Part shown: positions 4,174 to 18,679 of the stretch, piece by piece
How positions within the stretch are numbered: position 1 is the stretch's first letter
Layout: each line of letters opens with the position of its first letter
Source of the DNA: Sulfitobacter sp. OXR-159
Lineage (GTDB): Bacteria; Pseudomonadota; Alphaproteobacteria; Rhodobacterales; Rhodobacteraceae
Assembly (NCBI RefSeq): GCF_034377145.1
Contig: NZ_CP139711.1
Span: 1-64,000 of the forward strand
DNA length: 64,000 bases
Direction: 5' to 3'
Translations under genes and position numbers: made by a program
The notes under the pieces: generated by a model
The model's input: only the letters and a program-made list of their open reading frames with translations
The model's database searches: none
What the model was told of the DNA's origin: nothing

Positions 4174-4722
4174 ATGCCTGAAAAGCTCTCGTATTTCCGG
4201 TCTGGTGACTGGATCCTGCCAATAATTATTTTCATCTCTACTACAGCCTATCTTGTTGAGGCTTTGCAGAACGGTTCCTTTTTTCGTTACGGGCTACCTA
4301 GTGCGGGCTTCATGCCAATCGTTCTTAGTGTTGCAATGTACCTCTCACTATTGGCGGTTATTGTGGGGCAAATTAGGCGGCACAAGGTCAGACACGACAT
4401 AGAGTCCGCCCCTAGATCCTTAGAAGAGATGCATGATCTGGAGCCTTCCGTTCGTCCCAGTGGTAGCAGCGCATATGTTTCGCTGGCCGCCGTTATATTG
4501 ATTTCCCTCTTGTATGTATTGTTGTTTCGAAAGCTTGGGTTTGCAGTGGCCACCTTCTTTTTCTCACTGGGACTGCTGTCTACTTTCCGGTTCGGATGGT
4601 CGAAAGGCTTTCTCGGGATTGCACTGAATATCGTAGTGGCCGCGGCAATAAGTCTATTCGCATATTTGTTCTTTGCCGTTCTTTTCGGCATTCAACTCCC
4701 AAAAATGGAATTGCTGACATGA
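4174..4722 (+). CDS. tctB: tripartite tricarboxylate transporter small membrane subunit TctB
   Basis: A TctB-family protein with four predicted hydrophobic segments: GDWILPIIIFISTTAYLV, AGFMPIVLSVAMYLSLLAV, YVSLAAVILISLLYVLLF, and a long C-terminal pair ending in FFAVLFGI. The reading frame is open from 4081, but the ATG at 4174 has GAGGGAA just upstream, and the protein from there begins in the usual place for the family. I therefore prefer 4174 (182 residues). It sits between the binding protein and TctA and overlaps tctA by four bases. In the family, TctB stabilises or assists the large permease TctA. Confidence 0.8.
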   Translation: MPEKLSYFRSGDWILPIIIFISTTAYLVEALQNGSFFRYGLPSAGFMPIVLSVAMYLSLLAVIVGQIRRHKVRHDIESAPRSLEEMHDLEPSVRPSGSSAYVSLAAVILISLLYVLLFRKLGFAVATFFFSLGLLSTFRFGWSKGFLGIALNIVVAAAISLFAYLFFAVLFGIQLPKMELLT

Positions 4723-6257
4723 TGGAACAGTTGCTGCACGTTCTTGGGGGCTTCGAAACAATCGCGGAACCGGCGGTGTTCGGGTATTTGGTAGCCGGCT
4801 TCCTGATCGGGACTCTCTTTGCGGCGATCCCTGGGTTGACAGGCACATTGGCGATAGCATTGATCTTGCCGATTACCTATTCGATGGACATTACCCCGTC
4901 GCTTGTCATGTGCGCCGCTATTTTCATGGGAGCTCAGTATGGCGGCAGCATCACCGCTATAACAGTAAACATTCCTGGCGCACCTTGCGCTGTTATGACT
5001 GCATATGAAGGCAACATATTAATGCGTCGGGGGGAGGGTGCTCGCGCGTTGCGCAGTGCGGGCCTAGCGTCGATGATGGGGGGCGTGGTTGGTGCCGTAC
5101 TACTAATGACACTAGCACCTATAATAGCTCAAGCGGCATTGTATGTACAAACTCCCGGGAAGTTCTCTCTGATCCTATTCGCCTTTTTCGTAATCATTAT
5201 TTCGAACGATCAGTCCATTGCGAAGGGCATCGTCGCTACGCTGCTTGGCCTCATGGTCGCCACGATTGGAATTGATGTGGCAAGTTCCAAGGCACGTCAA
5301 ACCTTCGGACTGCCCTCTTTAGTTGAGGGTATCGATTTGATGGCTGTCATCATCGGGGCTTTTGCAATTAGCGAGTTATTGGTTCAGGTTACGGCAAGCT
5401 CTCGGAATAAGAATACTTTGAATTACAACCCAACCGAGTCAGTGAAGTGGAGTTGGCGTGACTTCCTGCCACGCGGTTCCGACTACAGCTTCATCGGCAC
5501 CTACCGCTACATAAAGTTCGCGATGATTGGCTACTTCGTTGGCGTCCTGCCGGGAGCAGGGGGAAGCAGTGCAGCGTTTGTTTCATATGCAGAGGCGAAA
5601 CGCAGTTCCTCGCGTCCTGAGGAATACAACAATGGTTCCGTAGAAGGAATTTCTGCCTCCGAAAGCGCTAACAACGCGATGTGCGGTGGTTCTCTCGTTC
5701 CGATGTTAACTTTTGGCATACCGGGAGATACTACATCCGCGGTGATACTCGGCGTCCTTATCATTAACGGCCTGCAACCGGGTCCACAGATGATGACTGA
5801 GCAATTCGCAGTAATAACACCAATGATGGCAGCTTTGCTCATCGCGGCACTACTGATCCCGATCACTCTTCTGTTCTTGGGTCCCTGGTACATGCGGCTT
5901 GTTTCAATCAACAAGGCGGTGCTTTTTTCGAGCATTGCAGTTGTTGCCATGGTAGGTGCATATGTATCAACTTTTTCTGTGTTTCAGATGGGAGCCGCGC
6001 TTGCCATCGGGGTTGGTGCCTATTTCATGCAGCGCGGTGGGTATCCAATGGTCTCCTTTCTGCTGGGTTTTATTCTCGGGCCAGACCTCGAGGTATACAT
6101 GAGGCGTAGCCTTGCCATTACTGACGGGAGCCCCTCCATTTTCTTCACTAGACCGGATAGTCTTTTCTTTCTTGGACTAATTGCAGTGTTTTTCTTCTTC
6201 ATGATCGTCCGTCCGTGGATTTCTTCGAGGCGAAAACACCTGTCACCGGATAAGTAA
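4719..6257 (+). CDS. tctA: tripartite tricarboxylate transporter permease TctA
   Basis: A polytopic membrane protein of about 512 residues. The family's glycine-rich motifs are visible early (GTLFAAIPGLTGTLAIALILPITY, given here in part) and again near FVGVLPGAGGSSAAF and FGIPGDTTSAVILG. The frame is open from 4596, but those first 41 codons lie inside tctB. The ATG at 4719 overlaps the tctB stop as ATGA and matches the family's N-terminus. It forms the transmembrane channel driven by an ion gradient. It ends the operon; IS debris starts about 20 bases later, so anything originally downstream has been lost. Confidence 0.9.
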   Translation: MMEQLLHVLGGFETIAEPAVFGYLVAGFLIGTLFAAIPGLTGTLAIALILPITYSMDITPSLVMCAAIFMGAQYGGSITAITVNIPGAPCAVMTAYEGNILMRRGEGARALRSAGLASMMGGVVGAVLLMTLAPIIAQAALYVQTPGKFSLILFAFFVIIISNDQSIAKGIVATLLGLMVATIGIDVASSKARQTFGLPSLVEGIDLMAVIIGAFAISELLVQVTASSRNKNTLNYNPTESVKWSWRDFLPRGSDYSFIGTYRYIKFAMIGYFVGVLPGAGGSSAAFVSYAEAKRSSSRPEEYNNGSVEGISASESANNAMCGGSLVPMLTFGIPGDTTSAVILGVLIINGLQPGPQMMTEQFAVITPMMAALLIAALLIPITLLFLGPWYMRLVSINKAVLFSSIAVVAMVGAYVSTFSVFQMGAALAIGVGAYFMQRGGYPMVSFLLGFILGPDLEVYMRRSLAITDGSPSIFFTRPDSLFFLGLIAVFFFFMIVRPWISSRRKHLSPDK

Positions 6258-6368: not shown

Positions 6369-6486
6369 ATGAAGGCATCGAAGTTTTCGGACGCGCAGAA
6401 AGCGTTCATCATCAAGCAGGGCGAAGAAGGCACGCCGGTGTCTGAGATCTGCCGTAAGGCAGGCATCAGCCAGGTGACCTACTGGA
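6369..6486 (+). pseudogene. IS3-family OrfA N-terminal fragment
   Basis: The first 39 codons read MKASKFSDAQKAFIIKQGEE and continue VSEICRKAGISQVTYW, the opening helix-turn-helix of an IS3-family OrfA. The homology then stops abruptly and the frame runs into IS110 sequence. The 50-100 bases before it (from about 6285) look like the left end of the same IS3 element. The rest of OrfA and all of OrfB are missing. Confidence 0.75.
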
Positions 6487-7900
6487 CCTGTCGCGGGATT
6501 GTGCCGCTCCTTTGTAAGACCGCATGTCTTTTCCACCGGCCCGACCCGGCCCTGCCTGATCCGCCTGTATGCTGGTCGCGGGGCGGCGGGTGCCGTCGGT
6601 TTGCGATGGAGGAAGACATGCGGAACACCCAAGGAACGATCTACGTCGGAATTGATGTGTCCAAGGACAAACTTGCGGTCGCGATCGCGGGTGGAGAGCG
6701 TGGGGACGAGGTTCTCAGCCTTGGCACGTTCGAGAACACACCCGCCAGCATCAGCAAGTTGCTGAAGAAGCTTGCCGGGCGAGGAGACATCTCGACCTGC
6801 TACGAGGCCGGACCGACGGGCTACGGCCTCTACCGGCAGATACGTGCGGCCGGCTGCGAATGCTGCGTGGTCGCGCCATCCCTGATTCCGGTCAGGGCCG
6901 GAGAGCGGGTCAAGACCGATCGACTTGACGCCCTGCGTCTTGCACGCCTTCTACGTGCCGGAGAATTGACCCCAGTCTGGGTCCCCGACGAGACGCACGA
7001 GGCGATGCGCGATCTGGTCCGGGCCCGGGAAAGTGCCGCAGAGGATCAACGCCACAAGCGTCAGCTCGTCTCGGCCTTCCTTCTGCGTCATGGGCGGGTC
7101 TATCAACGCTCCAAGCCGTGGACGATGCGTTATCGGCGCTGGCTGCAGACCCTGACGTTCGATCACCCGGCGCACCAGATCGCGCTGCAGGAGATGTTGC
7201 AGGCGGAAAGAAATGCCTCGGAGCGGCTGGAGCGGCTGACCGGGCACATCGAGGTCCTTGTGCCGGACTGGACGCTCGCGCCAGCAGTGAACGCGCTTCA
7301 AGCGCTGCGGGGCGTGGCGCTGATCAGCGCCGTCACCTTCATGGCCGAGATCGGCGATGTGCGGCGGTTCGAGACACCTGTGAAACTGATGGCCTATCTC
7401 GGGCTGGTGCCGAGCGAATACTCGACCGGCAAAACGACCAGGCGCGGTGGCATCACCCGTGCGGGCAACGCCCGCGTGCGACACAAGCTGATCGAGGGGG
7501 CCTGGACTTACCGCCTGCAGGCACGACCGGGAGAGCGGAAGCTCTACATCCTCAGAGAGCAGTCGCCGGAGGTCCAAGACATTGCCTGGAAGGCGCAATC
7601 TCGCCTGACCGCCCGATATCGCCAGCTCATCCGGCGCGGCAAGAAGCCGACCGTCGTCACCACGGCGATTGCGCGAGAGATGGCCGCATTCATGTGGGAC
7701 ATCGCCCGCCGTACCATGCCTGCGCGCTGAACTCGCTCCCCCGACGCGCCCAATGGCGGGCGCGAGGTCGACGGCAGGGGAATATCCGACACTCGCTTTG
7801 TGGCCAGCTTCGTGCTGACGCCCGTTGTAAGACAGGAATAGCCCCGAGACGCACAATCGGTCATGCGGTATCCAGCCCGCGCATCAGAGCTTGTTCACCG
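6486..7900 (+). mobile_element. IS110-family insertion sequence (approximate limits)
   Basis: The element contains one transposase gene and sits inside the truncated IS3 OrfA on its left. The left edge is set by the loss of OrfA similarity near 6486. The right edge is estimated from the end of non-coding sequence before the IS66 remnant. IS110 elements often lack clear terminal inverted repeats, so the exact ends cannot be fixed by eye. The second half of the IS3 OrfA is not found on the right side, so a deletion accompanied or followed the insertion. Confidence 0.6.
6618..7730 (+). CDS. IS110-family transposase
   Basis: A 370-residue transposase. The RuvC-like DEDD domain starts with YVGIDVSKDKL (first Asp at residue 13), followed by the KTDRLDALRLARLLRAGEL segment. 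The C-terminal Transposase_20 domain includes GVALISAVTFMAEIGDV and YLGLVPSEYSTGKTTRRGGI. ATG 6618 has GGAGGA five bases upstream, so it is preferred over the in-frame ATG at 6606. The open frame continues upstream only because it is accidentally fused to the IS3 OrfA fragment. The gene appears intact. Confidence 0.92.
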   Translation: MRNTQGTIYVGIDVSKDKLAVAIAGGERGDEVLSLGTFENTPASISKLLKKLAGRGDISTCYEAGPTGYGLYRQIRAAGCECCVVAPSLIPVRAGERVKTDRLDALRLARLLRAGELTPVWVPDETHEAMRDLVRARESAAEDQRHKRQLVSAFLLRHGRVYQRSKPWTMRYRRWLQTLTFDHPAHQIALQEMLQAERNASERLERLTGHIEVLVPDWTLAPAVNALQALRGVALISAVTFMAEIGDVRRFETPVKLMAYLGLVPSEYSTGKTTRRGGITRAGNARVRHKLIEGAWTYRLQARPGERKLYILREQSPEVQDIAWKAQSRLTARYRQLIRRGKKPTVVTTAIAREMAAFMWDIARRTMPAR

Positions 7901-8011: not shown

Positions 8012-8530
8012 TCACACGGATCTGACGTAGTTCCAGGGCAGCAGCTGGTCGATGTCGGTCTGTTTGTGCCCCGCGGCGATGGCTGTCATGGCACCAGCCA
8101 GATAGCCATGCGGTTCGATCCCATTGAGTTTGCAGGTTTCGATCAGAGACGCGATAACTGCCCAGTTTTGTGCCCCGGCATCGTGACCTGCGAAGAGCGC
8201 GTTTTTGCGGTTGAGGGCGATGGGACGGATTGTGCGCTCGACGGGGTTGGAATCCAGTTCGATGCGACCGTCGTCGAGGAACAGGATTAGCCCGTCCCAG
8301 TATTTGGCGATGTATTTCAGGGCCTCTCCTGTGGGCGATTTGGCTGAGACGCGTGCACGGCTTTGTGCGAGCCAAAGCTCGAATGCATCGATATTGGGTT
8401 TTGAGCGGTCCTGTCGTGCAGCAAGCCGTTGATCGGCAGGCAGGCCGCGCAGGTCTTTTTCGATGCGATAGAGTGCCTGGATTTGTGCCAGACCTTCCTG
8501 CGCAATTGGGTCTGCGCCAGATTGGGCAGC
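8012..8530 (-). pseudogene. IS66-family transposase (TnpC) C-terminal fragment
   Basis: The last ~170 residues of an IS66 TnpC. Recognisable segments are FLDDGRIELDSNPVERTIRP, ALNRKNALFAGHDAGAQNWA and SLIETCKLNGIEPHGYL, ending in DQLLPWNYV. Similarity fades upstream of about 8510-8530, where the N-terminal leucine-zipper, zinc-finger and catalytic parts should be. TnpA and TnpB are absent. It is therefore a dead remnant next to the cyclase island. Confidence 0.85.
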
Positions 8531-8757
8531 ATCATGCAGTTTGCGGCGGGCAGCAGGCCTACAATCGCTACTTGATCGGCGGGGCAAGTGGCGCGGAATA
8601 CGCAGCTCTCAAGGCGCGGCAGTTCTTCGGCGTGCAGCAGATGCCGGTGCGGCAAGGCATGGGACAGACGGGGCAAGCAAGCGGCACAGGATCATCGGGG
8701 GCCGGGTCTCGAATGCTGGCGCAACTGGCCCGGTTGGCTAGGTTGGGGCGGCGATGA
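8531..8757 (+). other. unidentified coding remnant
   Basis: On the plus strand a frame ending at the TGA at 8755-8757 reads ...YNRYLIGGASGAEYAALKA and continues through a Gly/Ser-rich stretch to LAQLARLARLGRR. It looks like the C-terminus of a real protein broken by the IS66 fragment, because the coherent segment begins where the IS66 similarity stops. I do not recognise the family. Low confidence that it is still expressed. Confidence 0.3.
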
Positions 8758-8767
8758 CGGGTACCGG

Positions 8768-9568
8768 TCACGAACTCGATTTGGCCAGAGGGCAGTATTT
8801 CATCGTCCCACAACACTTGGGCGCATCCTTACAAATATCCTGGATAAAGTCGTGCTGCGCCTTGCGACGCCTGTGCTCCAGTAAAGCAATGCGCTCTAGT
8901 GCAGATCTGTTTGGACACTCTGCCCTTAGGATCGGTTTCCCACCTGTCATCTCTCGGTCGGTGTCTACTGGACGGCAAACAATCGAACGATTGCTGTCGG
9001 CCTGACGCGTGCAACCCCTCGGGCAAGGAGTTCTAGAATTGAGCAATCGATCCAAGCGGTGAGATGCCTTGGGTAAGGAGTTGGCCAACCAGCCCTTCCC
9101 GCGGAACATGCCGACTAGGATCTCTTCTTTCCAACCCAATGGAGCAGCCAGCTCTTCCATTTTTTCCTGAATCCGCGCCGCGTCCCCGTGAGAAAGACCT
9201 CCTTCAAGAGGCCACACTCCATACTTCCGCGCATACTCCTGATGAAGGAGGAACATGCGTAGGTATTCCCACCAGGCTATCGCCGCATGCGCTTCGATTA
9301 GCGGTTCAGTTGATCCATAGGAGATACAAAAGGTGGCATCGGGATTGATGTGTCTCTCAGGACAGGAAGCGGGGAAATGATTGGCCGCTACGTCCTCCGC
9401 CACGCTAACGCCTCCTCCGTGCAATAGAGCGAGCTTCAGAAGGTAGTGTCCCGCGATCGATCCGCTCGCCTTTTGGGGTTCGCAAGTTACCTGCGCCGTT
9501 GCTGGTCTATCTGTTTCTACTCTGACCCATAAAGGGGTGTGTTTCAGCAGTAGCCTAAGAGAGTTCAT
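8768..9568 (-). CDS. E2 (ubiquitin-conjugating)-like protein with Cys-rich C-terminus
   Basis: A 266-residue protein. The segment CPERHINPDATFCI (residues 69-82) resembles the E2 signature: His73-Ile-Asn75 corresponds to the HPN tripeptide, and Cys81 is placed like the E2 catalytic cysteine. Downstream is an alpha-helical WEYLRMFLLHQEYARK stretch with WPLEGGLSHGDAA. The last 85 residues carry eight further cysteines (182, 186, 198, 218, 246, 252, 253, 259), possibly metal-binding. Its ATG overlaps the cyclase stop by four bases (ATGA), so it is translationally coupled to the nucleotide cyclase. No E1, ubiquitin-like or JAB peptidase gene is nearby. By analogy with E2-only CBASS, it may modify the cyclase. 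The assignment to a prokaryotic E2 family is my pattern match, not a search result. Confidence 0.6.
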   Translation of the reverse strand: MNSLRLLLKHTPLWVRVETDRPATAQVTCEPQKASGSIAGHYLLKLALLHGGGVSVAEDVAANHFPASCPERHINPDATFCISYGSTEPLIEAHAAIAWWEYLRMFLLHQEYARKYGVWPLEGGLSHGDAARIQEKMEELAAPLGWKEEILVGMFRGKGWLANSLPKASHRLDRLLNSRTPCPRGCTRQADSNRSIVCRPVDTDREMTGGKPILRAECPNRSALERIALLEHRRRKAQHDFIQDICKDAPKCCGTMKYCPLAKSSS

Positions 9569-11175
9569 TTCTTTGCGAGATGCGCGCGCGGTTGGCTTGG
9601 TTCCGAGGGGACGTGGGCTCGAGCGTACAACGGTTGAGCCAATTCAGTCGGCGTCGCAAGAATGCTAGCTGAGACATCGTCGTAGTCGACTTCTCTCGCG
9701 TACCCCTGATCACTGAGGACATCAATAAGGCCCTTGGGAGCAACACGAAGTGCGTCTGGTCCGATCTTTACACCGCCCTCGTTGCACTCTCGCTGCATTT
9801 TCTCCGACGTAGATGTGGCCTTTGATGACGCCACTCGTACGGATCGTTCGCCTCGAATACCAATCCTCGAAATCGGAGTCGGGCCGAGCTCTAGACCTAC
9901 GGCAAGCTCTAGGCTTTCGATCTCCTCAAGCATCGATTTGCAAAGGTCGAAGGAAGCATGAAATCCCGCTGCGCACTGTGTGGCTGTGGCGACACTCTTA
10001 GCTTCGTCAGTTGATGTGCCGCTGCCTTCTGCAACCAAAGCATGGATACTGTCACCGATGAACCGAACTTTGCGACCGCCAAAGTCGGCTTCTGCCACGT
10101 TTTGAAACTCTTGGCGTATGACAAAGAGCGCGCGCACGGCATCCTGAATGTTTCCTTCGGACACCGCCTCGTCGATGAAATTGGTGTAGCCCGATATGTC
10201 GGCGAACAATGAGACCAGAGGCATCCGGATTGATTTGCTCGGATAGAGTTGCGAGTAGTCAATCTCGCTCAAAGGAGGCTGCTTGAAGGAAAACCTAAAA
10301 TCGGAGGAAGTTAAGTCGTCCACAATCCCCTTTCGAACATCGCCCGACCAAGTGTCTACAACTCGTTCCGAAAAGGCTTGCCTGTTCATTACGCCAAACA
10401 TCAAGCTGCCATCGTCAGAAGTGTAGGCTGAATTCGTGCTGATTTGGCTTGCGTTCAGCCCCAAAAACTCTTCGAGCACGCCAACTTCTTGATATCCAAG
10501 CACGGCTCTAACTCGGTCTGAAACGTACACACCGGCCGTATCACCTTCTGCAAGCTTTGCTGCATGGTTGGCCGCTGAACCGAGAAACATCGGTTCTTGT
10601 TCAGACCCGGTCCCGTTGTTGATCGCAACGCATGTCCCAACATCAACACCGATCCGGAACTCAGTTCCAAACTCCCCATTGGCCAACCGATCATTGGCCA
10701 ATTGGACTACGCGCTTGAAATCTTCAACAAAGGCAAGGGCTTGACCTATAGTTTCTCGCGATACTCCGCCGCCCCCGGTCTCAAGAAAAACTGCATGCAT
10801 CCGCCCGCTGTGAAAGTCGACCCTTTGTGCACTGGTTTCTTCGATCACGCGATCCGCCGCGCCGTAGTATAGATGCAGCCCCTTAAGCGCCCGCGCGTGA
10901 GATCCCTCGGTTTCACGACCATCGTCCAAACGCATCTCATGGTACCCTACGATCGAGATATAGATCTGAACAGTATCGACTACGACTGCCTTGTCCCTTG
11001 GTAGGCTGAAAAGCGGTGGCGTAGTGGGCTGCTTCATCGCTGTCTGCAGCGCCTTATCGATTTGATATCGCGACCAATATTGGTCGAAGCGCTGGACATC
11101 CACTTCGGGCACTTCATCCAAGAGCTTCTGAATACGATCACGTGCGACCGAGTGCTTCCAAGGCATGATCTTCAT
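9565..11175 (-). CDS. tandem-domain class III nucleotide cyclase
   Basis: A 536-residue protein with two class III cyclase homology domains (about 65-240 and 315-515). Domain 2 keeps both metal-binding aspartates: LFADISGYT (Asp326) and VRFIGDSIHAL (Asp375). In domain 1 the matching positions are Ser74 (IYISIVGYH) and Gly124 (VDFHSGRMHAV). Domain 1 instead keeps the GSAANHAAK motif (Asn203, Lys207), which is altered in domain 2 (SVRVASSKA). The two halves can therefore make one composite catalytic site, as in mammalian adenylyl cyclase. Residues 1-60 are a non-cyclase extension. The gene is coupled to the downstream E2-like gene and divergent from the WYL-Pycsar operon. The nucleotide product is not predictable by eye. 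Confidence 0.8.
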   Translation of the reverse strand: MKIMPWKHSVARDRIQKLLDEVPEVDVQRFDQYWSRYQIDKALQTAMKQPTTPPLFSLPRDKAVVVDTVQIYISIVGYHEMRLDDGRETEGSHARALKGLHLYYGAADRVIEETSAQRVDFHSGRMHAVFLETGGGGVSRETIGQALAFVEDFKRVVQLANDRLANGEFGTEFRIGVDVGTCVAINNGTGSEQEPMFLGSAANHAAKLAEGDTAGVYVSDRVRAVLGYQEVGVLEEFLGLNASQISTNSAYTSDDGSLMFGVMNRQAFSERVVDTWSGDVRKGIVDDLTSSDFRFSFKQPPLSEIDYSQLYPSKSIRMPLVSLFADISGYTNFIDEAVSEGNIQDAVRALFVIRQEFQNVAEADFGGRKVRFIGDSIHALVAEGSGTSTDEAKSVATATQCAAGFHASFDLCKSMLEEIESLELAVGLELGPTPISRIGIRGERSVRVASSKATSTSEKMQRECNEGGVKIGPDALRVAPKGLIDVLSDQGYAREVDYDDVSASILATPTELAQPLYARAHVPSEPSQPRAHLAKK

Positions 11176-11233
11176 CTCCTAACATAGCGGCTCAGCATGG
11201 CAGCGAGTCGCAAAGTTTTTTCTGTGGTCATAC

Positions 11234-11261
11234 AAAATAGGAGTTTCCAAGAAAATGTCAA
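11234..11261 (-). promoter_or_regulatory. sigma-70-type promoter of the cyclase-E2 operon
   Basis: On the minus strand a consensus -35 TTGACA (11256-11261) and a -10 TATTTT (11234-11239) are separated by 16 bases. The predicted start of transcription is about 50 bases before the cyclase ATG. It lies in the 126-base spacer between the cyclase and the WYL regulator, so a repressor bound here could control both directions. Confidence 0.6.
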
Positions 11262-11301
11262 TATGGTAGAAATTGGGAGACATCAGGGGGGGGGACAAGC
11301 T

Positions 11302-12168
11302 ATGGACATCAAACCAAGTGTACGGCGACGTTTTGAGTTTATCGATTTTCAGTTGCAATGGACAGGTTCGATCGGTCGCAAGGCCTTGCAAAATCAGTTC
11401 GAGATATCGCCTCAACAAGCGACAAACGACCTAACCACATATCTTGATATCGCACCCCGCAACATGAGCTACGACCCGCGACGCCGATCTTACGTCGTGG
11501 GTTCAAAGTTCAAGCCAAAGTTCTCCAGCGGGGAGTCTTCCGGTTTCTTTCTTCATCTGGAGATGTTTCATCAAGGCTATCGCACTAAAGAGGAAATTTG
11601 GCCAACTCACTTGCCGGAGTTTGACGCTGTTGCCATCGCGTCTCGCAAGGTTGATCCGAAAATTCTTCGATCAGTACTCGATGCAATTGATGCAGAAGCA
11701 TGTTTGGAGGTTCGATATGTTTCGCTCAGCTCAGACTCAGAAACCATACGAACGCTTTGCCCTCATGCCATTGCTAGCGACGGACACCGATGGCACATGC
11801 GTGCCTATGATGTGGAGAAGGGCCGGTTCTCAGACTTTGTGCTTTCAAGAATTGAAGCCGCAAGCGTATTGCAAGAGGAATGCCCGGATCCGCGCCCAGA
11901 CGCACTTTGGCAACAAATAGCAGCGCTAAAACTTCAGGCAGATCCAACCCTTACCGCAAGGCAAAGAGAACAGATTGAGATCGAGTACGGCATGGTTGAC
12001 GGCGTTCTCGAGCTCCCAGTGCGCAAGGCAATGCTGTTCTATTACCTTAGATTCTACGGCTTTGATCCTCTCGAAATGGATGGGAAGGCCATGCGAAATA
12101 AGAGCAGCTACCGTCTCAAAATACTTAACTTGGAAGAAATAGAGACTTGTTTGGAAAGAAGAAAATAA
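11302..12168 (+). CDS. WYL-domain transcriptional repressor, CapW/BrxR-like
   Basis: A 288-residue regulator. An N-terminal winged helix (RRRFEFIDFQLQWTGSIGRK, then LQNQFEISPQQATNDLTTYL) is followed by the YDPRRRSYV linker. A WYL domain includes LEVRYVSLSS and HRWHMRAYD, and a C-terminal WCX-like region runs to the end. The architecture matches CapW/BrxR repressors, which sit beside CBASS, BREX and related defence operons. Start at ATG 11302 is preferred: it has a G-rich ribosome-binding site, whereas the open frame before it has none. Its last 22 bases overlap the start of the effector gene, so regulator and Pycsar genes form one operon. Confidence 0.82.
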   Translation: MDIKPSVRRRFEFIDFQLQWTGSIGRKALQNQFEISPQQATNDLTTYLDIAPRNMSYDPRRRSYVVGSKFKPKFSSGESSGFFLHLEMFHQGYRTKEEIWPTHLPEFDAVAIASRKVDPKILRSVLDAIDAEACLEVRYVSLSSDSETIRTLCPHAIASDGHRWHMRAYDVEKGRFSDFVLSRIEAASVLQEECPDPRPDALWQQIAALKLQADPTLTARQREQIEIEYGMVDGVLELPVRKAMLFYYLRFYGFDPLEMDGKAMRNKSSYRLKILNLEEIETCLERRK

Positions 12169-13057
12169 GCGATCCACCGCCACCGGTGGAAAATGATCAA
12201 TTGTCGACAGAAGTGTTAGACAAGCACCGACAGATCATTTGTCGAAGCGAACTCGTTGCCAATGAAGACGACCTCGCGGCTAAAATTATTGGCATGTCGA
12301 GGCTGGTTAAGTTCGACAAGGGTCAGGTTTTAATGACCCACGGCGAGGATGCTGATGATGTTTACTTCATTTTGTTCGGATCCGTCAGAGTATCCATCAA
12401 CTCAACCTTCATTGATACCAGAGAGGCACCTCAGACCATTGGCGAAATGGCGGCAATGAAACCAGGTGCTGCTCGCTCCGCAGATGTCTGTGTCGAGTCC
12501 GAGAAATTGGAAGCACGGGTTATCTCGGCACACGACTTTAGAACTCTAATGTCCACGCACACCGAGTTTTCTACGCGACTGTCGAGCATGGTAGATTCCA
12601 TGAATCGAAAAAACATAAGATTACTTGGCACCAGTAGTAGATCGCCGGGAAACGCCTGGACATGGACTTCGATAGTGTTCGGCGCAGTAGTTGGACTCCT
12701 TTGTGGCATTTGGCTTGGGCTTGGGGCTCTCCACTTTGGTTTGCGATTTTGTCGGCCCTCGGTGCCGGTGCCTTGAGCACCCTCGTTGCTATCCGGATGA
12801 ATCCAGACCTGATTTATCGCAACATGTTTTGGCTTTCGGGCGCAGCTATGATTGCTCAAACAGTCCAAACCGTCTTTAGCCTTTCATTTTCAGTCGATGG
12901 GACACAGAACCAACTGCCGCTTCTTTGGAATTTCAACTCGAACCCCGAGCAGAAGTGGTGGGTTGTCTTAATAATCTATCTCTCCCTTGCCGCGTTGGCG
13001 TTCATGTCTTGGCTGGCAGATCGAGATCTTCGAAGGAACTCCAGCAAAAGTGAGTGA
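12147..13057 (+). CDS. pycTM: Pycsar membrane effector (PycTM-like), frameshifted
   Basis: The first frame (TTG start 12147, GGAAG upstream) has a cyclic-nucleotide-binding domain at residues 45-155. Its phosphate-binding-cassette pattern is IGEMAAMKPGAARSA (Gly99, Glu100, Arg110, Ser111). One hydrophobic helix follows (SIVFGAVVGLLCGIWLGLG), then a stop at 12774. The rest of a four-helix membrane domain (FAILSALGAGALSTLVAI, FWLSGAAMIAQTVQTVF, VVLIIYLSLAALAFM) continues in the -1 frame to 13057. A one-base loss near 12730-12740 explains this; the repaired product would be about 303 residues. In Pycsar, cCMP or cUMP binding triggers such an effector to damage the inner membrane and abort infection. 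Its end overlaps pycC by eight bases. It may be inactivated, programmed, or a sequence error. Confidence 0.75.
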
Positions 13058-13742
13058 ATTCGAGAACAAGATACACGATGACGTTCGGGGCATCTTCAAA
13101 TCAGCCTGGACTGAGACCAAAGGACAAGTTGTTCCAAAGTCAGAAGACCTGGGCCTGTCAAATGTTGGGCGTTCAATATCCGCGACGATACTCTACGCAG
13201 ACATTGATGGGTCAACGCAGATTGTAGATCGATACGACGCCAAGTTCGCGGCCGAGGTTTACAAAGCGTTTTTGCTCTGCGCCACAAGGGTGATCCGGCT
13301 AAACGGGGGAGATGTTAGATCCTTCGATGGTGACCGAGTGATGGGCGTATTTATCGGAGACAGCAAGAACTCTGACGCTGCCAAAACAGGTCTTCAGATC
13401 AACTATTTGGTTAAGAAGGCTATCAATCCAGCACTGAAAGACCAATACACATCGACCAAATTTTCTCTTCGCCATACCGTTGGAATCGATACGTCAGAGA
13501 TGCTCGTTGTGAGGAGTGGTATTCGCAACAATAATGACCTCGTATGGGTCGGAAGCGCCGCCAACAATGCTGCACGAATGAACTCTCTTTCGAGCGATTT
13601 CGCAACGCGGTTGACTCCAGCCGTCTACAAGAAATTGAACGAAAAATCGAAATTCGGCGGAAACCCGAGGCGCAACATGTGGACCAGCGCGGACTGGAAT
13701 GGGCGAACAATCTACCGATCCTCTTGGACTTGGCGACCATGA
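13050..13742 (+). CDS. pycC: Pycsar pyrimidine nucleotide cyclase PycC
   Basis: A 230-residue single-domain class III cyclase. All catalytic positions are present: ILYADIDGST (Asp51), SFDGDRVMGVF (Asp95) and VGSAANNAARM (Asn172, Arg176), so a homodimer would have two complete sites. The short length, N-terminal helical lead-in and LYADIDGST motif match PycC enzymes, which make cCMP or cUMP on phage infection. The GTG at 13050 is chosen because it overlaps the effector stop, and because upstream codons in this frame lie inside the effector. Cyclase clade and nucleotide preference cannot be settled without alignment. The next 92 bases to traG hold nothing I recognise. Confidence 0.82.
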   Translation: MSEFENKIHDDVRGIFKSAWTETKGQVVPKSEDLGLSNVGRSISATILYADIDGSTQIVDRYDAKFAAEVYKAFLLCATRVIRLNGGDVRSFDGDRVMGVFIGDSKNSDAAKTGLQINYLVKKAINPALKDQYTSTKFSLRHTVGIDTSEMLVVRSGIRNNNDLVWVGSAANNAARMNSLSSDFATRLTPAVYKKLNEKSKFGGNPRRNMWTSADWNGRTIYRSSWTWRP

Positions 13743-13834
13743 ACTCCTATTTCGACCATCAAAGCAGACACTTAAGACTTGTGCAGCGAAAGACCTCTTC
13801 CCGCCCGCTCGATCGAAATACGATCCTAGCCACC

Positions 13835-15847
13835 CTATCGGGTAAACAGCTTTTCACCGCCGTCCTCTCGCAGCATCGCTTCCATATCGTCCAAGCCATC
13901 AACGGCAGAGCGCATCTGCGCCTCATCATCCACGCCCACTGTCTCGGCATCCGCAACCTGGCCCCCCAAATCCATTTCCATCTGTCGTTGTTCCTCGGCG
14001 ATAACGGCTTGAACGACGGGCGCGGTCTTCTTTGTGGCGACATCGGTTTGCCCTGAAGATTGGCCACCAGCAGCCTCGCGTGTCCGCTCCACATCAGCTT
14101 CAGAACCACGGGGCCCGCTCGACGGCGGTGTCATCGGCATGGCGCGCATACTCAGCGGCAGGTTCCCCTGCGGCCCCCCTCCCCCCTGATCCGGAAACGG
14201 CAACTCACCCGTCTGCGCCGCGTGGATCGCCTTGAACAGCCGGTCGTCAAAATATTGGATCCGCTTTGCACGGACCGGCATTTGCGCATCGATCACCATG
14301 ACGATCTCGTCGAGCGGCAGGCGGCGGGCCTCATCTTCGGGGAGCAAGGAGCTCTCTTCGGTCCGTGTGGATTGGCTGCGCCCTTCAAAGGGGTTCTTGC
14401 CGATGGACTGGGAGCGCGTGACCACGGTTTTCGTGGTCTTGCCGACCGCCTTGCTCAACTCTTCGACGGTTTTCTCATCCGAAGGCGTCAGGTAGAGCTT
14501 TACACCCGCGTTCCCCTGCAGCGCGCGGCGCGTGTTCTCACCATAGATTTCATCGAGGGCGGGGATTGTCTGGGTGACCACGGCCAGATGACCGCGGTAG
14601 GTCCGCAAGGTCTCGATGCTCTCGACCACGATGGGCATCTTGCCCAGGCGGTTGAACTCATCGAGCATGATCATCACCGGCCAAGGCTCATCCGGCCCGG
14701 GATCCTTTTCCTGCATGGCCGAGAGGAGATCGGAGAAGAACAGCCGGATCAGCGGCGCGAGCGGCTTCACCATGAGAGGCTGGACCACCAGATAGACCGA
14801 AAAGGGCTTCTTGCGGATCGTCCGGAAATCAAAGTCCGACACCGCCGTCGCCTCATCAATCGCCGGGTTCTGCCATTGATCGAGCCCCGAGGTCATCAGG
14901 AGCGAAACGTAGGAGGTCAGCGTGTCGTTGTTGGTCGAGGCCAACCGCGTGAAGATCAGCTTGGCCGCCCGGTTGTCGACCTCGTGACCCCGCGCAAAAT
15001 ACTCCTTCTGCTTGTTCCCGCCCGAGGCGGCGATGCGGTAGATTTCGCCCAAGGTGGGACGCTTGCGCTGGAAGGCCAGCAAGCCTGCTGCCACAAAGAG
15101 ATCGATCCCGCCCTTGAGGAGGCCCTGCACCCGGTCATTGTCGCTCTGCAGGAAGAGCGTCGCCAGAAGCTGCAGTTCCATCTGCTGGCGCGCGGGATCT
15201 TTCAGCTCAAAGATACGCAGGAGCGGGTTGTAGCGATGCGTGCGCTTGCCCTCCCAATCGGTGGGGGCAAAGCGATAGACCTTGTCGCCCTGGGCGGCGC
15301 GGTGGCGCGCCGTGGCCTCGAAACACTCGCCCTTCACATCGAGGGTGACTGCGGAGCCCTGCCAGGTCAGCAGGTTCGGAATGACGAAGCCCGTGGTCTT
15401 GCCGCGACCCGTGGGCGCCACGATCAGCGCGTGTGGGAAGACCTTCGAGCAGATGTATTTTGCGCGGGATTTTGGGGGGCCGAGTTTGCCGAGGATAAAT
15501 CCCGTGCCGGGCGCCCCGAAGAAGCCATTGGCCTTCATCTCGCGCGCGCTCTGCCAATGGGTCTGGCCAAACCGTGTCAGGGCCGATCCCGAGAGAGCGA
15601 GGCTCAGCATCATGCCGGCGGCGGCAAAGCTGCCGATGATCAGATGGATGAGCTGGGCATCCTCGGGGCGGCGATCGAGTATCGCGAGATAGTTCTGCGC
15701 GATATAGGCGAAATCGATCTCGGCCCCGAAGCCGAGGTCCTGGTAGCTCAGCACCGCCGAGGCGATGGTGTAGCCTATGGCGGCGGTCACCAGCGTTACC
15801 AGCAAAACGCCGGTCGCGATCCGCGCCTTTCCCATGGCGGCGCTCAA
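13835..15847 (-). CDS. traG: type IV secretion coupling protein TraG/VirD4
   Basis: A 670-residue ATPase that links the relaxase-DNA complex to the secretion channel. It has N-terminal membrane helices (GVLLVTLVTAAIGYTIASAV and IHLIIGSFAAAGMMLSLAL), a Walker A at IVAPTGRGKTTGF and a Walker B at VMIMLDEFNRLGKMP. The last 110 residues are a low-complexity acidic/Gln-rich tail. The start is either TTG 15847, overlapping the relaxase stop, or ATG 15835. The gene follows the relaxase in the same operon. It is conjugation machinery adjacent to, but convergent with, the Pycsar genes. Confidence 0.92.
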   Translation of the reverse strand: MSAAMGKARIATGVLLVTLVTAAIGYTIASAVLSYQDLGFGAEIDFAYIAQNYLAILDRRPEDAQLIHLIIGSFAAAGMMLSLALSGSALTRFGQTHWQSAREMKANGFFGAPGTGFILGKLGPPKSRAKYICSKVFPHALIVAPTGRGKTTGFVIPNLLTWQGSAVTLDVKGECFEATARHRAAQGDKVYRFAPTDWEGKRTHRYNPLLRIFELKDPARQQMELQLLATLFLQSDNDRVQGLLKGGIDLFVAAGLLAFQRKRPTLGEIYRIAASGGNKQKEYFARGHEVDNRAAKLIFTRLASTNNDTLTSYVSLLMTSGLDQWQNPAIDEATAVSDFDFRTIRKKPFSVYLVVQPLMVKPLAPLIRLFFSDLLSAMQEKDPGPDEPWPVMIMLDEFNRLGKMPIVVESIETLRTYRGHLAVVTQTIPALDEIYGENTRRALQGNAGVKLYLTPSDEKTVEELSKAVGKTTKTVVTRSQSIGKNPFEGRSQSTRTEESSLLPEDEARRLPLDEIVMVIDAQMPVRAKRIQYFDDRLFKAIHAAQTGELPFPDQGGGGPQGNLPLSMRAMPMTPPSSGPRGSEADVERTREAAGGQSSGQTDVATKKTAPVVQAVIAEEQRQMEMDLGGQVADAETVGVDDEAQMRSAVDGLDDMEAMLREDGGEKLFTR

Positions 15848-18177
15848 TGGATTTGTCCCCGCTCGGTCTCGCCATCCACGTCTGTCGCGCGGTGTTTTTC
15901 GTATTCCGCGTCGGCGAGTTCATCGACCACCTGGCGCAAGGCCTCCGTATTGGCCGTCGCTGCATCGGATTGCAGGTAGACCTTGGCGACATAGAGCCGG
16001 TCGAGGCGGTCCTCGAGAACCTTGTCCAGCGCATCGGCATCCCCGGATGTGAGCCGGCCCAATTGACGGTCATCCAGCACCCGCGCGATCTCGGTTCGGA
16101 AAGCGTCCCGCTCCGCCTCGGTCTCGAAGGGCGCGGACAACTCCCCCGCCCGCTCATGGTCCAGGACACGCGCGATTTCGTCTGCGAGAAGGTCGGTACG
16201 GTCAGTCTGCGGCGCCGTTTCATCGCGGGTGGCTAGACGTTCGTCACGCGTGCCAACCCCAAGCCCCTCGCGCAACTCGTTGTCGCGGCGAACCTGATTG
16301 ATGGCCTCCGTGTCCCGGATCTCCACAACGGCGGCATAGGTCGCGCCGAGCCCACGGGCGAGGTGGGAGGGCATGTCCGGATAGCGCGCTCGTAAGTCAT
16401 CCGTGACAGCATCCGCAATGGGCGTGCGGAGGTCGCGTGCCTCCATGATCCGGTCGACATCGCGGGCGATCTCGCTGGCGCGGGAAGCATCGGTGATGGC
16501 CTCCCTGTAGGGCTCGGACCGGTCGATCACATCGCCCGGCCGTGTCAGTAGGTCCGGATGTGCCTCGAGATACGCGCGCTGCTCGGTCTCGATCCGGCGC
16601 TCCGCCCTTGAGACAACCTCCCAGTCCCGGTCCTCGATCTGCTGCGCTGTCAGGCCGTCAGCGCGCATCTCCTGACGGATTGTCCCTTCCATCGCCCGGA
16701 CCGCGCCCTCGTGATAATGGAACCGCTCGCTGACCGCTTCCGTTTCCACAACGCCATCCCGACGCAGCACGTTTTCCCGTTTCAACAGCGTGCCAAGTTC
16801 GACATGCACGTCATTTAGGATGTCACGCGCCTGCTCCAGATCGGCGCGGCGTTCGAGGTTCAGATCGCGAGCCTCGGCGACCTTTGAGAGATCATCGGCG
16901 ATCCATTGATGTTCCAGCGCGGCACTCGCGGCGCCGGTCTCGATCCGGGCTACCACTTCAGATGTGCTGATCCCGGTTCCGCGCAGCGCGGTGTCTATGC
17001 GCGACCGCAAGTCCGGCCCGGCCAGACGGTCCAGCCGGCTGGCGTCGATATTGGCCTCAGAATAGACCCCGCCTTCCGAAGGAGCCTCGGAGAGCGTGGA
17101 TGATCGCAAACCGAGAGGCTGCATGTGCTGGATCTGCGCCTGGATCTCGATGAGGCGCTTTTCCAGCACGGGACGTTCCGCATCGGGCTTCTCGGCGATC
17201 ATGCCCTGCACCCGTGCGAGCTTCTCCGCATAGAGGCTTCTCAGATCCTCGAAACTTTGATCCTCGGCCATATACACATCTCCTGTTCGATCCACCTGCC
17301 CGCCCCGCGCCAGCACCTCGCCGGCGCGGAAGAGGGCCGCGGCAATATCCTCGCGGGCCTCCCGGGAGGCTTCCGCGGCAAGCGAATGGTAGACGGTTCT
17401 GGTATTGGCGATCTCCGCCAGCGTCCGCGCCAGGTCCTGCCCCACACGTTCGCGCTCGCGGGGTGCGCGACCCTCTTCCTTTGCGGCATAAACTTCGCGG
17501 GTGGGGGCCGGGTAATGCACAACCCCGCGATCCACCCGGCGCGTCGCTTCCAGCCGCACGCCGTACTTCTCCGCCTCCTCGACCATGGCGAGGCGGAAAT
17601 CTTCATAGTTGAAGCGATGGTTGCGCCCGAGGAAAAAGAACTCGCCTTCTTGCGAGCGGCGGTTCAGCACCAGATGCGCATGCGGGTGATCGCGGTCTTC
17701 ATGCACCGCGATGATGTAGTCGAAATGCCCCGCGTCACTCTGGAAGAACCGCTCGGCCACATCCGTCGCGATGTCGCGCACATCCTCTCCCCGCGTGCCG
17801 ATGGGGAAGGACATGAGCATGTGGGTGGTCTGGCCCAGCTTGGGTTTGAAGCCTGCATCCCACCGCTTGGCAAAGCGCTCGGTCAGATCCTTGATGTCAC
17901 GCGCCTCGAGCTTCGCTTTTCCATCGAGGAACCCGCTACTGTCCACGATATGGGTGGACTTGGTGGTGAGGTACTCGAGCTGGTTTGTGAGCTGCGACTT
18001 TGTATGCGTGCCCCCGCCCCGGATCGCCTTGAAGACCGCTGGCCGGTGCCCCGCCGCCGCGCGCGCAAGCTGGCTCTGCTTGGCGACATGCAGCCCCTGC
18101 ATCGAGCCCCGGATCCGGCTCCAGCCGTCCCGGAAGACCTCGCCTGTGACAGCGTCAACCGCATCATTCAGCCGCAT
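15844..18177 (-). CDS. VirD2-like conjugative relaxase
   Basis: About 777 residues. The N-terminal third is the relaxase domain with the three-His metal motif HEDRDHPHAHLVLNRR and the TTHMLMSFP segment. The nicking Tyr is likely within YLTTKSTHI or a nearby tyrosine. The remaining 500 residues are Arg/Glu-rich and mostly helical. ATG 18177, with AAGGGAG upstream, is preferred over the TTG at 18183. It nicks the plasmid at oriT and is carried to the recipient. It overlaps the upstream mobC-like gene and is followed by traG with overlapping ends. Confidence 0.88.
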   Translation of the reverse strand: MRLNDAVDAVTGEVFRDGWSRIRGSMQGLHVAKQSQLARAAAGHRPAVFKAIRGGGTHTKSQLTNQLEYLTTKSTHIVDSSGFLDGKAKLEARDIKDLTERFAKRWDAGFKPKLGQTTHMLMSFPIGTRGEDVRDIATDVAERFFQSDAGHFDYIIAVHEDRDHPHAHLVLNRRSQEGEFFFLGRNHRFNYEDFRLAMVEEAEKYGVRLEATRRVDRGVVHYPAPTREVYAAKEEGRAPRERERVGQDLARTLAEIANTRTVYHSLAAEASREAREDIAAALFRAGEVLARGGQVDRTGDVYMAEDQSFEDLRSLYAEKLARVQGMIAEKPDAERPVLEKRLIEIQAQIQHMQPLGLRSSTLSEAPSEGGVYSEANIDASRLDRLAGPDLRSRIDTALRGTGISTSEVVARIETGAASAALEHQWIADDLSKVAEARDLNLERRADLEQARDILNDVHVELGTLLKRENVLRRDGVVETEAVSERFHYHEGAVRAMEGTIRQEMRADGLTAQQIEDRDWEVVSRAERRIETEQRAYLEAHPDLLTRPGDVIDRSEPYREAITDASRASEIARDVDRIMEARDLRTPIADAVTDDLRARYPDMPSHLARGLGATYAAVVEIRDTEAINQVRRDNELREGLGVGTRDERLATRDETAPQTDRTDLLADEIARVLDHERAGELSAPFETEAERDAFRTEIARVLDDRQLGRLTSGDADALDKVLEDRLDRLYVAKVYLQSDAATANTEALRQVVDELADAEYEKHRATDVDGETERGQIH

Positions 18178-18679
18178 GAGCAAACTCCCTTAACGCGGCC
18201 GTGGCCTTGAGCTGTATCGCATCGCGACGGCGCCGCAGGAGCAGGTCGATCTCGTCGGCGGAATCGAGGATGAACCGCGCCAGCCCGCGCATCTGCGCGA
18301 GGCGCAATTCGGAGAACTCGGCACGCGTGCCACCATCAGCCCCCTGCCCCTGCCGGTTGGCCTTCGTCATCTGCTTGGCGATCTGCGCGACCCCATTGCC
18401 AACCTCATGCAAAGAGGACCTGTATCGCGCCATCTCGACCGCCATTTGCGCGTCCGGGACGAACACCCCACCCGCCGCCTGGATGAGCCGCCGCAGACCC
18501 TCGGCCCGGCTCTCGATCCCGGCCTTCGCCAACACCGCGTCGAGCGCCTCAAGCTCCGCAGCGGTGACCTTCACACTGACCGCTGAGACCGGGATCGCGG
18601 CATCCGTCTGGCGCTCCGCATCGGCTTTGAGCGTGTACTGGATCGCCCGCACCGACACGCCAAACCGTTCCGCCAGCAC
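18164..18679 (-). CDS. MobC-like plasmid mobilisation accessory protein, 5' truncated
   Basis: The 171 codons from a GTG at 18679 encode an Ala/Arg-rich helical protein (VTAAELEALDAVLAKAGIES, then RAEGLRRLIQAAGG) typical of relaxase-accessory DNA-binding proteins. The frame continues upstream without a stop right up to the transposon end at 18704, so the natural N-terminus has probably been lost. It overlaps the relaxase by 14 bases. Whether the remaining GTG start yields a functional protein is uncertain. oriT normally lies close upstream of such a gene and may also have been separated. Confidence 0.65.
   Translation of the reverse strand: MLAERFGVSVRAIQYTLKADAERQTDAAIPVSAVSVKVTAAELEALDAVLAKAGIESRAEGLRRLIQAAGGVFVPDAQMAVEMARYRSSLHEVGNGVAQIAKQMTKANRQGQGADGGTRAEFSELRLAQMRGLARFILDSADEIDLLLRRRRDAIQLKATAALREFAHAAE

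Follow-up and report, generated by a model that had tools for sequence, protein, structure and literature searches.

The DNA analyzed here (hereafter the window: 64,000 nucleotides of Sulfitobacter sp. OXR-159, GCF_034377145.1, contig NZ_CP139711.1, positions 1 to 64,000) carries at 8768..11175 a tandem nucleotide cyclase of the pyrimidine cyclase system for antiphage resistance (Pycsar), directly followed by a gene for a ubiquitin-conjugating-like E2 protein. We are fairly confident in reading the pair as an E2-controlled Pycsar operon, in which the E2 would act through Cys81 on the C-terminal tail of the cyclase to prime or restrain it, and comparison of related loci suggests that the E2 likely clips or conjugates this conserved tail, controlling alarm signaling. 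A first-pass annotation of the same letters had given the coordinates, strand and ATGA overlap of the two genes correctly, as a check of the open reading frames (ORFs) showed, while the strong promoter it assigned to them came down to a single 10-of-12 consensus match, shuffled sequences giving a mean of 0.6. The pair comprises the following features:

8768..9568, minus strand: E2 (ubiquitin-conjugating-like) gene, 266 amino acids, identified by Pfam, PADLOC, alignment, a structure model and a fold match to Cap2 and CdnG-E2
9565..11175, minus strand: clade A PycC, a tandem class III nucleotide cyclase of 536 amino acids, identified by Pfam and PADLOC, the match to 6YII and a 51-row alignment
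9568..9640, minus strand: C-terminal tail of the cyclase, with two R-A-H copies, the last one four residues from the C-terminus, delineated by tail statistics and a hold-out set
9565..9568, minus strand: ATGA stop/start overlap of cyclase and E2, the same four-base overlap being found in many relatives

The 536-residue protein matched PF00211 in two stretches and, over most of its length, the PADLOC PycC model PDLC00762 (4e-171), so that the two-domain class III cyclase proposed at first was borne out; it also matched PDB entry 6YII (1e-66), which is PaPycC, a clade A PycC (PMC11224242). Clade A is defined there by two consecutive cyclase domains, and cUMP is reported as the product of Pycsar clades A-D (PMC11224242). 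Pfam, PADLOC, alignment and 6YII all recovered a pair of successive class III cyclase domains within the one protein, and an effector with a cyclic nucleotide-binding (CNB) domain is encoded beside the cyclase, the window copy lying in two overlapping ORFs. Its sequence places the window cyclase in clade A of PycC; the production of a cyclic pyrimidine nucleotide and protection from phages by the unit are predicted. The alignment of 51 tandem cyclases comprised the window and 50 of 55 related loci, near-copies (L002, L021) and partial sequences (L003, L005, L039) being omitted. Asp326 and Asp375 were invariant in the second domain, Asn203 and Lys207 in the first, where position 124, which we aligned with Asp375, was mostly Gln, Gly, Ser or Ala. 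By what is common among class III cyclases we take Asp326 and Asp375 to be metal-binding positions, and because the invariant residues are shared out between the two domains in this way, we infer one composite active site per tandem cyclase. The link to the crystallized protein is direct in Pseudomonas veronii (L034), whose cyclase is identical to 6YII over 514/514 residues and has the E2 gene next to it; a P. aeruginosa plasmid (NZ_CP115292) carries annotated pycTIR and pycC and then an E2 that shares 99.6% identity with its L034 counterpart, an E2 missing from the displayed gene table, which is itself incomplete.

The 266-residue protein exceeded the Pfam cut-offs for both PF20298 (E2-ntca, 6e-18) and PF20272 (E2-Crich, 2e-9) and matched the PADLOC E2 model PDLC00878 over its full length (1e-114), which rules out a chance ORF as its origin. 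The E2-ntca domain, whose name may stand for nucleotide-cyclase-associated (a guess of ours), spans residues 27-120 with H73-I74-N75 and the catalytic-type Cys81, and is followed by a cysteine-rich domain at 127-261. Structure prediction (pLDDT, predicted local distance difference test, 89) returned an E2 fold, and the top VIA-align matches of the model were Cap2 and E2 proteins of the cyclic oligonucleotide-based antiphage signaling system (CBASS). The HIN motif and Cys81 were invariant in 50/50 aligned rows (the window and 49 of 120 listed homologues) and in 61/61 rows of the locus set, in which the window is present twice (also as L001), near-copies are included, and HIN, unlike Cys81, was favored by the locus-search pattern. 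Curated domain matches, HIN with a downstream cysteine and a modeled E2 fold thus all agree with the E2-like protein first proposed, and the E2 fold, the conservation of Cys81 and the recurrence of the pair, the three points on which that proposal could have failed, each came out in its favor; thioester formation and conjugation by this protein are predicted. As a side observation, the annotation of an Acinetobacter plasmid locus (L086, NZ_CP051210) divides the E2 domain and the cysteine-rich domain between two overlapping genes at 4514-5271, and accordingly the two domains may be separate proteins. A phage origin was also considered and set aside: with a sister cyclase as query, no match was found in 50,697 phage records; one viral contig carries a cyclase and ends right after it.

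Recurrence in other genomes, which the first-pass annotation had named as a check, is clear. A scan of genome contigs for the E2 yielded 55 loci, and in all 55 loci found in this way a tandem cyclase lies directly before the E2 on the same strand, three of these cyclases being partial (L003 is a fragment; L005 and L039 are cut by the contig end). The E2 loci in other genomes rule out a pair private to this one. Among the 295 genomes of the window's family, six match PF20298, five of them over the cut-off and all five with the cyclase; no cyclase match was obtained in the sixth (L061), which is below the cut-off. When the search started from the cyclase, 4/398 and 2/385 genomes matched; that of the window was among them each time, and the E2 is present in every one of the five distinct genomes. 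Cyclase and E2 distances correlate (r 0.82, 50 loci), a figure to which we give no weight because neighbors inherited together yield the same correlation.

The slot after the cyclase is not always filled by the E2. A plasmid collection held 27 records with a clade A PycC at E<=1e-30 (24 covering at least 80% of the query); the E2 is present in 22 of them, and the other five carry in its slot an E1-E2 ligase, three with a JAB protease gene. By coordinates the E2 adjoins the cyclase in 21 of the 22, the last being a Phenylobacterium plasmid with about 1.8 kb between them and an IS3 transposase annotated under the cyclase match. The Mesorhizobium (L068), Cupriavidus (L069) and Sphingobium baderi plasmids have an E1-E2 gene and a JAB/Mov34 gene, and two Agrobacterium plasmids (L070, L075) a ThiF gene with no JAB annotated beside it. 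Pfam recognized ThiF in the L068, L069 and L070 ligases, Prok-E2_B in that of L070 and Prok-JAB in L068 and L069, and PADLOC classed the three ligases as E1-E2 by two different models; the L075 and Sphingobium ligases were identified by annotation, the latter also by its match to the Mesorhizobium E1-E2. In a tree of 58 cyclases, built after removal of the last 45 residues from 49 E2-type rows and nine others (three with a known E1-E2 partner, six labeled by their GFA tail), two changes of ligase type are needed and are also forced by the well-supported branches; as a caution, L070 joins another long branch there. E2 or E1-E2 in the clade A slot are the two options of CBASS type II.

The tail of the cyclase follows the type of ligase. 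The strict motif R[AP][HYF] occurs within the last 20 residues of 45/51 E2-type cyclases (shuffled mean 1.5, maximum 7) and stands four residues before the C-terminus in 31 of these 45; a loose form, [RQE][APS][HYF], shaped on this very set, occurs in 51/51 (shuffled mean 3.9, maximum 11). A hold-out set of 13 E2-type plasmid cyclases gave 9/13 for the strict and 10/13 for the loose motif, the misses being TPY (twice) and KAH; these cyclases are 49-91% identical to the first set, and the rows are therefore not independent events. The 13 were drawn from the 22 E2-type plasmids after exclusion of H3 (L067, a copy of the L034 cyclase) and H25 (L076, a near-copy of the window unit), and H1, H2, H4, H5, H21, H26 and H27 were not included either. 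In L068 and L069, where the E1-E2 and JAB partners are known, the cyclase ends in GFS. The Mesorhizobium cyclase has 1398 relatives, and of the best 120, chosen by cyclase sequence and not by partner gene, 110 end in GFA and ten in GFS; the strict motif occurs in 0/120 of them and the loose one in 8/120. The L070 and L075 cyclases end in GGTRHA; the relatives of the former are mixed, the first 13 ending in R[HN]A and others being RPH- or APY-like, and allow no partner-based count.

These tails could also be explained if the E2 only bound them, in a docking, chaperone or inhibitor role, and did not use its Cys81 chemistry on the cyclase. The conserved part of the tail is indeed a short internal motif, repeated in 13/51 E2-type rows as is often the case for binding motifs, and the last residue is free to vary. 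On the other hand, H73, N75 and Cys81 are invariant, and the E2 is swapped in the same slot for E1-E2 ligases, three of them accompanied by JAB proteases, and we consider mere docking unlikely. The retention of the inner motif while the last residues vary would also suit an E2 that cleaves the peptide bond following the motif and makes use of it.

A second alternative is that the cyclase tail serves only for recruitment, the E2 conjugating something else, either a protein of the host or phage or a ubiquitin-like one that is encoded elsewhere and charged by a housekeeping ThiF-type E1. Two ThiF-family genes do lie elsewhere in the window's genome, where no dedicated E1 for the window E2 was found besides them, and Bil-type systems tag phage proteins. 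However, a search of 56 loci (L001-L056) with three sister-operon ligases and two JABs detected no relatives, and no Prok-JAB match in the window's genome was over the cut-off (two weak ones were below it). Both results reject the need for a nearby E1 or JAB, and no E1 or JAB gene was recognized in the window operon, ubiquitin-like proteins not having been searched for. Also against this alternative, which we hold to be improbable, are the sister tails of the E1-E2/JAB type, ending in -GFS (L068, L069) with closest relatives mostly in -GFA, since CBASS Cap2 conjugates its substrate through a Gly or Ala at the C-terminus (PMC10097602).

Similar tails are found in CBASS, on cyclases of another fold. 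Relatives of the Mesorhizobium E1-E2 occur on 120 plasmid records, several of the 15 listed being next to nucleotidyltransferases (90/120 records are from Klebsiella). Six CBASS Cap2 relatives (L095-L100) were compared, with 33-41% identity and alignments that cover 93-99% of the query; among them, L095-L098 have a nucleotidyltransferase, ThiF, Mov34 and a SAVED gene nearby, and L099 (Bacillota) and L100 (a cyanobacterium) are similar. The CD-NTases of L095-L099 match Pfam SMODS and/or DncV-like, not PF00211, and of the six CD-NTases beside the Cap2 relatives four end in GFA, that of L097 in GFGGAE and that of L098 in GFGGK. In comparisons of four CD-NTase with four PycC tails, from which L099 and L100 were left out, the score was reached by at most two of 500 shuffles in 11/16 pairs and by at most three in 12/16, three of the four misses involving the Cupriavidus tail and the fourth being L098 vs. 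L068, whereas the bodies of the same proteins were at chance level in 16/16 (at least 8/100 shuffles reach them). The tail of the L096 CD-NTase scored at least 38 against all 120 GF[AS] tails, and none of the 51 E2-type tails gave it a score above 35.

CBASS operons with a lone E2 offer the other comparison. Three were found in 398 genomes, with SMODS plus DncV-like CD-NTases and with E2s that matched PADLOC E2 models but no Pfam family. The PADLOC model PDLC00872 reached E<=1e-5 in 79/398 genomes; its three strong places (E<=1.5e-38) are these lone-E2 CBASS genomes, and the rest (5.8e-8 or weaker) are short stretches near the profile end. Three further operons came from plasmids through E2 similarity, their nucleotidyltransferases being known by annotation only. 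In 6/6 of these operons the CD-NTase ends in RPH, SPW or KPW plus two to four residues, a pattern noticed on these same six. Broadened to [APS][HYFW] two to five residues from the end, it is found in 43/51 E2-type PycC (shuffled mean 5.7, maximum 14) and in 0/120 GF[AS] cyclases. The lone CBASS-type E2s (L102, H89, H98, H99) apparently have a C-terminal SEC-C-like cysteine motif (from annotation, and for L102 from the sequence), a possible counterpart of the PF20272 domain. The window unit shares with CBASS type II a ligase directly after the cyclase and a conserved cyclase tail; that it is itself a CBASS was rejected, since it has no SMODS match and its cyclase matches PF00211 only, in contrast to the eight CBASS comparators, which match SMODS and/or DncV-like.

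How an E2 could act on such a tail is suggested by CBASS, where Cap2 joins the C-terminal Gly or Ala of the CD-NTase to lysines and signal output rises, and where the C-terminal residue of the CD-NTase is conserved only if Cap2 and Cap3 are present (PMC10097602). In the E2-controlled Pycsar operon that we favor, the CNB-membrane effector would be opened by a cyclic pyrimidine nucleotide from the tandem cyclase. The E2 would take the cyclase by cleaving off the few residues that follow R-[AP]-[HYF], form the thioester at Cys81 and then transfer the cyclase to a lysine of the cyclase or of another protein, in the way reported for the E2-only CBASS of Serratia, and this conjugation would raise signal output on infection. 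Cleavage of the tail with no E1 is proposed because no dedicated E1 was found. In work by Yan et al. in 2024, the Serratia E2 reportedly first processes the C-terminus of its cyclase. The WYL-domain protein encoded next to the pair would keep the divergent genes repressed as long as neither DNA damage nor infection occurs, as may be presumed from CapW-type regulators (PMC13373217). The analogy with CBASS drawn at first sight holds for the lone E2 after the cyclase and for its fold, closest to Cap2 and the CBASS E2, and the suggestion that the cyclase C-terminus is the E2 substrate gains support from the tail statistics, a comparative kind of evidence.

A bolder extension, which we put forward tentatively and rate somewhat below an even chance, is a portable ligase-tail code common to two unrelated immune cyclase folds. 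In CBASS and clade A Pycsar alike, the ligase of the operon (Cap2-like E1-E2 with JAB, or lone E2) would set the C-terminal tag of the cyclase, either -GFA or, slightly inward of the C-terminus, P/A-[H/Y/F/W] with a few residues after it. The lone E2 would charge itself without E1 or ATP, the cyclase peptide bond cut behind the motif charging Cys81, and cyclases would then be joined to each other or to a target, switching Pycsar on. The ligase-tail correspondence across two cyclase folds is the surprising part. If the code is true, Pycsar would be switched on by a self-made, ubiquitin-style conjugation. The fixation beside the clade A cyclase of a third gene, swappable for a Cap2-like ligase, indicates that post-translational conjugation control probably evolved for class III cyclases as it did for CD-NTases, and that the ligase probably reads the tail and not the cyclase fold. 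For 6YII it is predicted that the C-terminus should be the handle of the neighboring enzyme, and the effect of the system may be underestimated with Pycsar constructs that lack the E2 or the native tail.

The first-pass annotation had taken the pair for a new immune module; it is better described as an E2-bearing form of the known Pycsar, its cyclase being represented in PADLOC and by 6YII and its E2 in PADLOC, Pfam and NCBI. The parts are catalogued as PADLOC E2, E1-E2, JAB and PycC models, as Pfam PF20298 and as NCBI "E2 domain-containing protein". Word searches of the literature did not find E2 or E1-E2 as part of Pycsar, although an earlier mention is possible; new here are the constant succession of cyclase and E2, the interchange between E2 and E1-E2, the match between tail and ligase, and the similar CBASS tails. 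With clade A Pycsar (PaPycC/PaPycTIR) the window unit shares the tandem cyclase, the CNB effector, a frequent location on plasmids and the E2 family gene after PaPycC; it differs in an effector that joins CNB to a transmembrane part (CNB-TM) in place of CNB-TIR. Clade A is described as cyclase plus receptor (PMC11224242), to which the window adds the E2, a WYL gene and a second cyclase. Short CBASS type II (Serratia CdnG-E2, PDB 8HSB/8YJY) likewise has a cyclase followed by a lone E2, which together with Cap2 is the closest match of the window E2 model, and the cyclase tails read P-[HW]-x(2-4) in the 6/6 CD-NTase-E2 operons compared; the window is set apart by its class III cyclase, the PF20272 domain on the E2 and an expected cyclic mononucleotide product. 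Long CBASS type II (CD-NTase, Cap2 and Cap3) is paralleled by the sister clade A operons with Cap2-like E1-E2 and JAB after the cyclase, and both cyclase folds can end in -GFA, but the window operon has the E2 only, with neither E1 nor JAB. With Bil and Bub the window has in common a prokaryotic E2-type enzyme in defense, and it differs from them in that no E1 or JAB gene was recognized in its operon, the searches not extending to ubiquitin-like proteins.

Divergently from the cyclase the window carries four further features:

11197..12168, plus strand: WYL-domain transcription factor, divergent from the cyclase (Pfam WYL 3e-12)
12147..12776, plus strand: CNB part of a predicted membrane effector, the frame broken before the transmembrane part ends (Pfam, PADLOC)
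12662..13057, plus strand: transmembrane part of the CNB effector in another frame (ORF list, PADLOC)
12987..13742, plus strand: single-domain PycC cyclase, an optional extra (PADLOC PDLC00766, 9e-94)

The true start of the WYL gene may lie downstream of a G run near 11287. The CNB part of the effector matched Pfam cNMP_binding (PF00027, 2e-11) and a PADLOC PycTIR-type N-terminus. The neighboring Pycsar locus had been described as complete; its effector is in fact interrupted (12147-12776 and 12662-13057), while a single ORF of 303 amino acids is present in the near-identical L002 and L076, and the interruption is either a recent change or loss or an assembly difference. Within 4.5 kb of the pair, a CNB effector was found in 42/55 loci (24 CNB-TIR and 18 CNB-TM, where a simple test of hydrophobicity served to assign the latter class); a WYL gene lies at this distance in 23 loci, a single-domain PycC in 16 and PycTM in nine. 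The divergent WYL plus CNB-TM arrangement of the window recurs in 17/55 loci, including L002, a near-copy of the window, and a single-domain cyclase lies within 4.5 kb in 5/17 of these.

From these last two counts the WYL and effector genes are mostly to be read as the effector half of the same unit as cyclase and E2, with the second cyclase as an optional part. Two independent systems, chance neighbors in a defense island, could account for the arrangement as well, and a second system standing back to back with the pair was the original proposal; single-domain PycC does stand beside PycTM in some loci (PycTM in 9/55), forming a Pycsar pair of its own. We nevertheless find this quite unlikely, given the CNB effectors near the pair in 42/55 loci, the 12/17 divergent WYL plus CNB-TM loci with no single-domain cyclase within 4.5 kb, and PaPycC itself, which is described as working with the CNB-TIR effector (PMC12489823).

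Other genes were seen near the tandem cyclase in some loci. A gene fusing a CNB domain with a class III cyclase precedes it in L023, L025-L027 and L070 (by Pfam for L023, by clustering or our own reading for the others), and the fusion may stand in for the usual effector or serve as a sensor. In L025, L026, L036, L049 and L053 an IrrE/Peptidase_M78-type gene, one cluster member of which was checked by Pfam, lies near the cyclase and is reminiscent of CapP-type regulators.

Roseovarius sp. MMSF_3350 (L002) matched 16.8 kb of the window with one mismatch and two gap openings. The Roseovarius plasmid pTHAF9_a (L076) matched 8551 to 18631 at 97.2%, and the unit therefore travels on conjugative plasmids. 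A relaxase and a type IV secretion system are annotated on pTHAF9_a. At 13835-18679 of the window, conjugation-type genes lie beside the island, with ORFs that we read as TraG/VirD4-like and relaxase-like, and just downstream of the E2 gene (6369-7730 and 8012-8587) are transposase-like ORFs, presumably IS110- and IS66-like.

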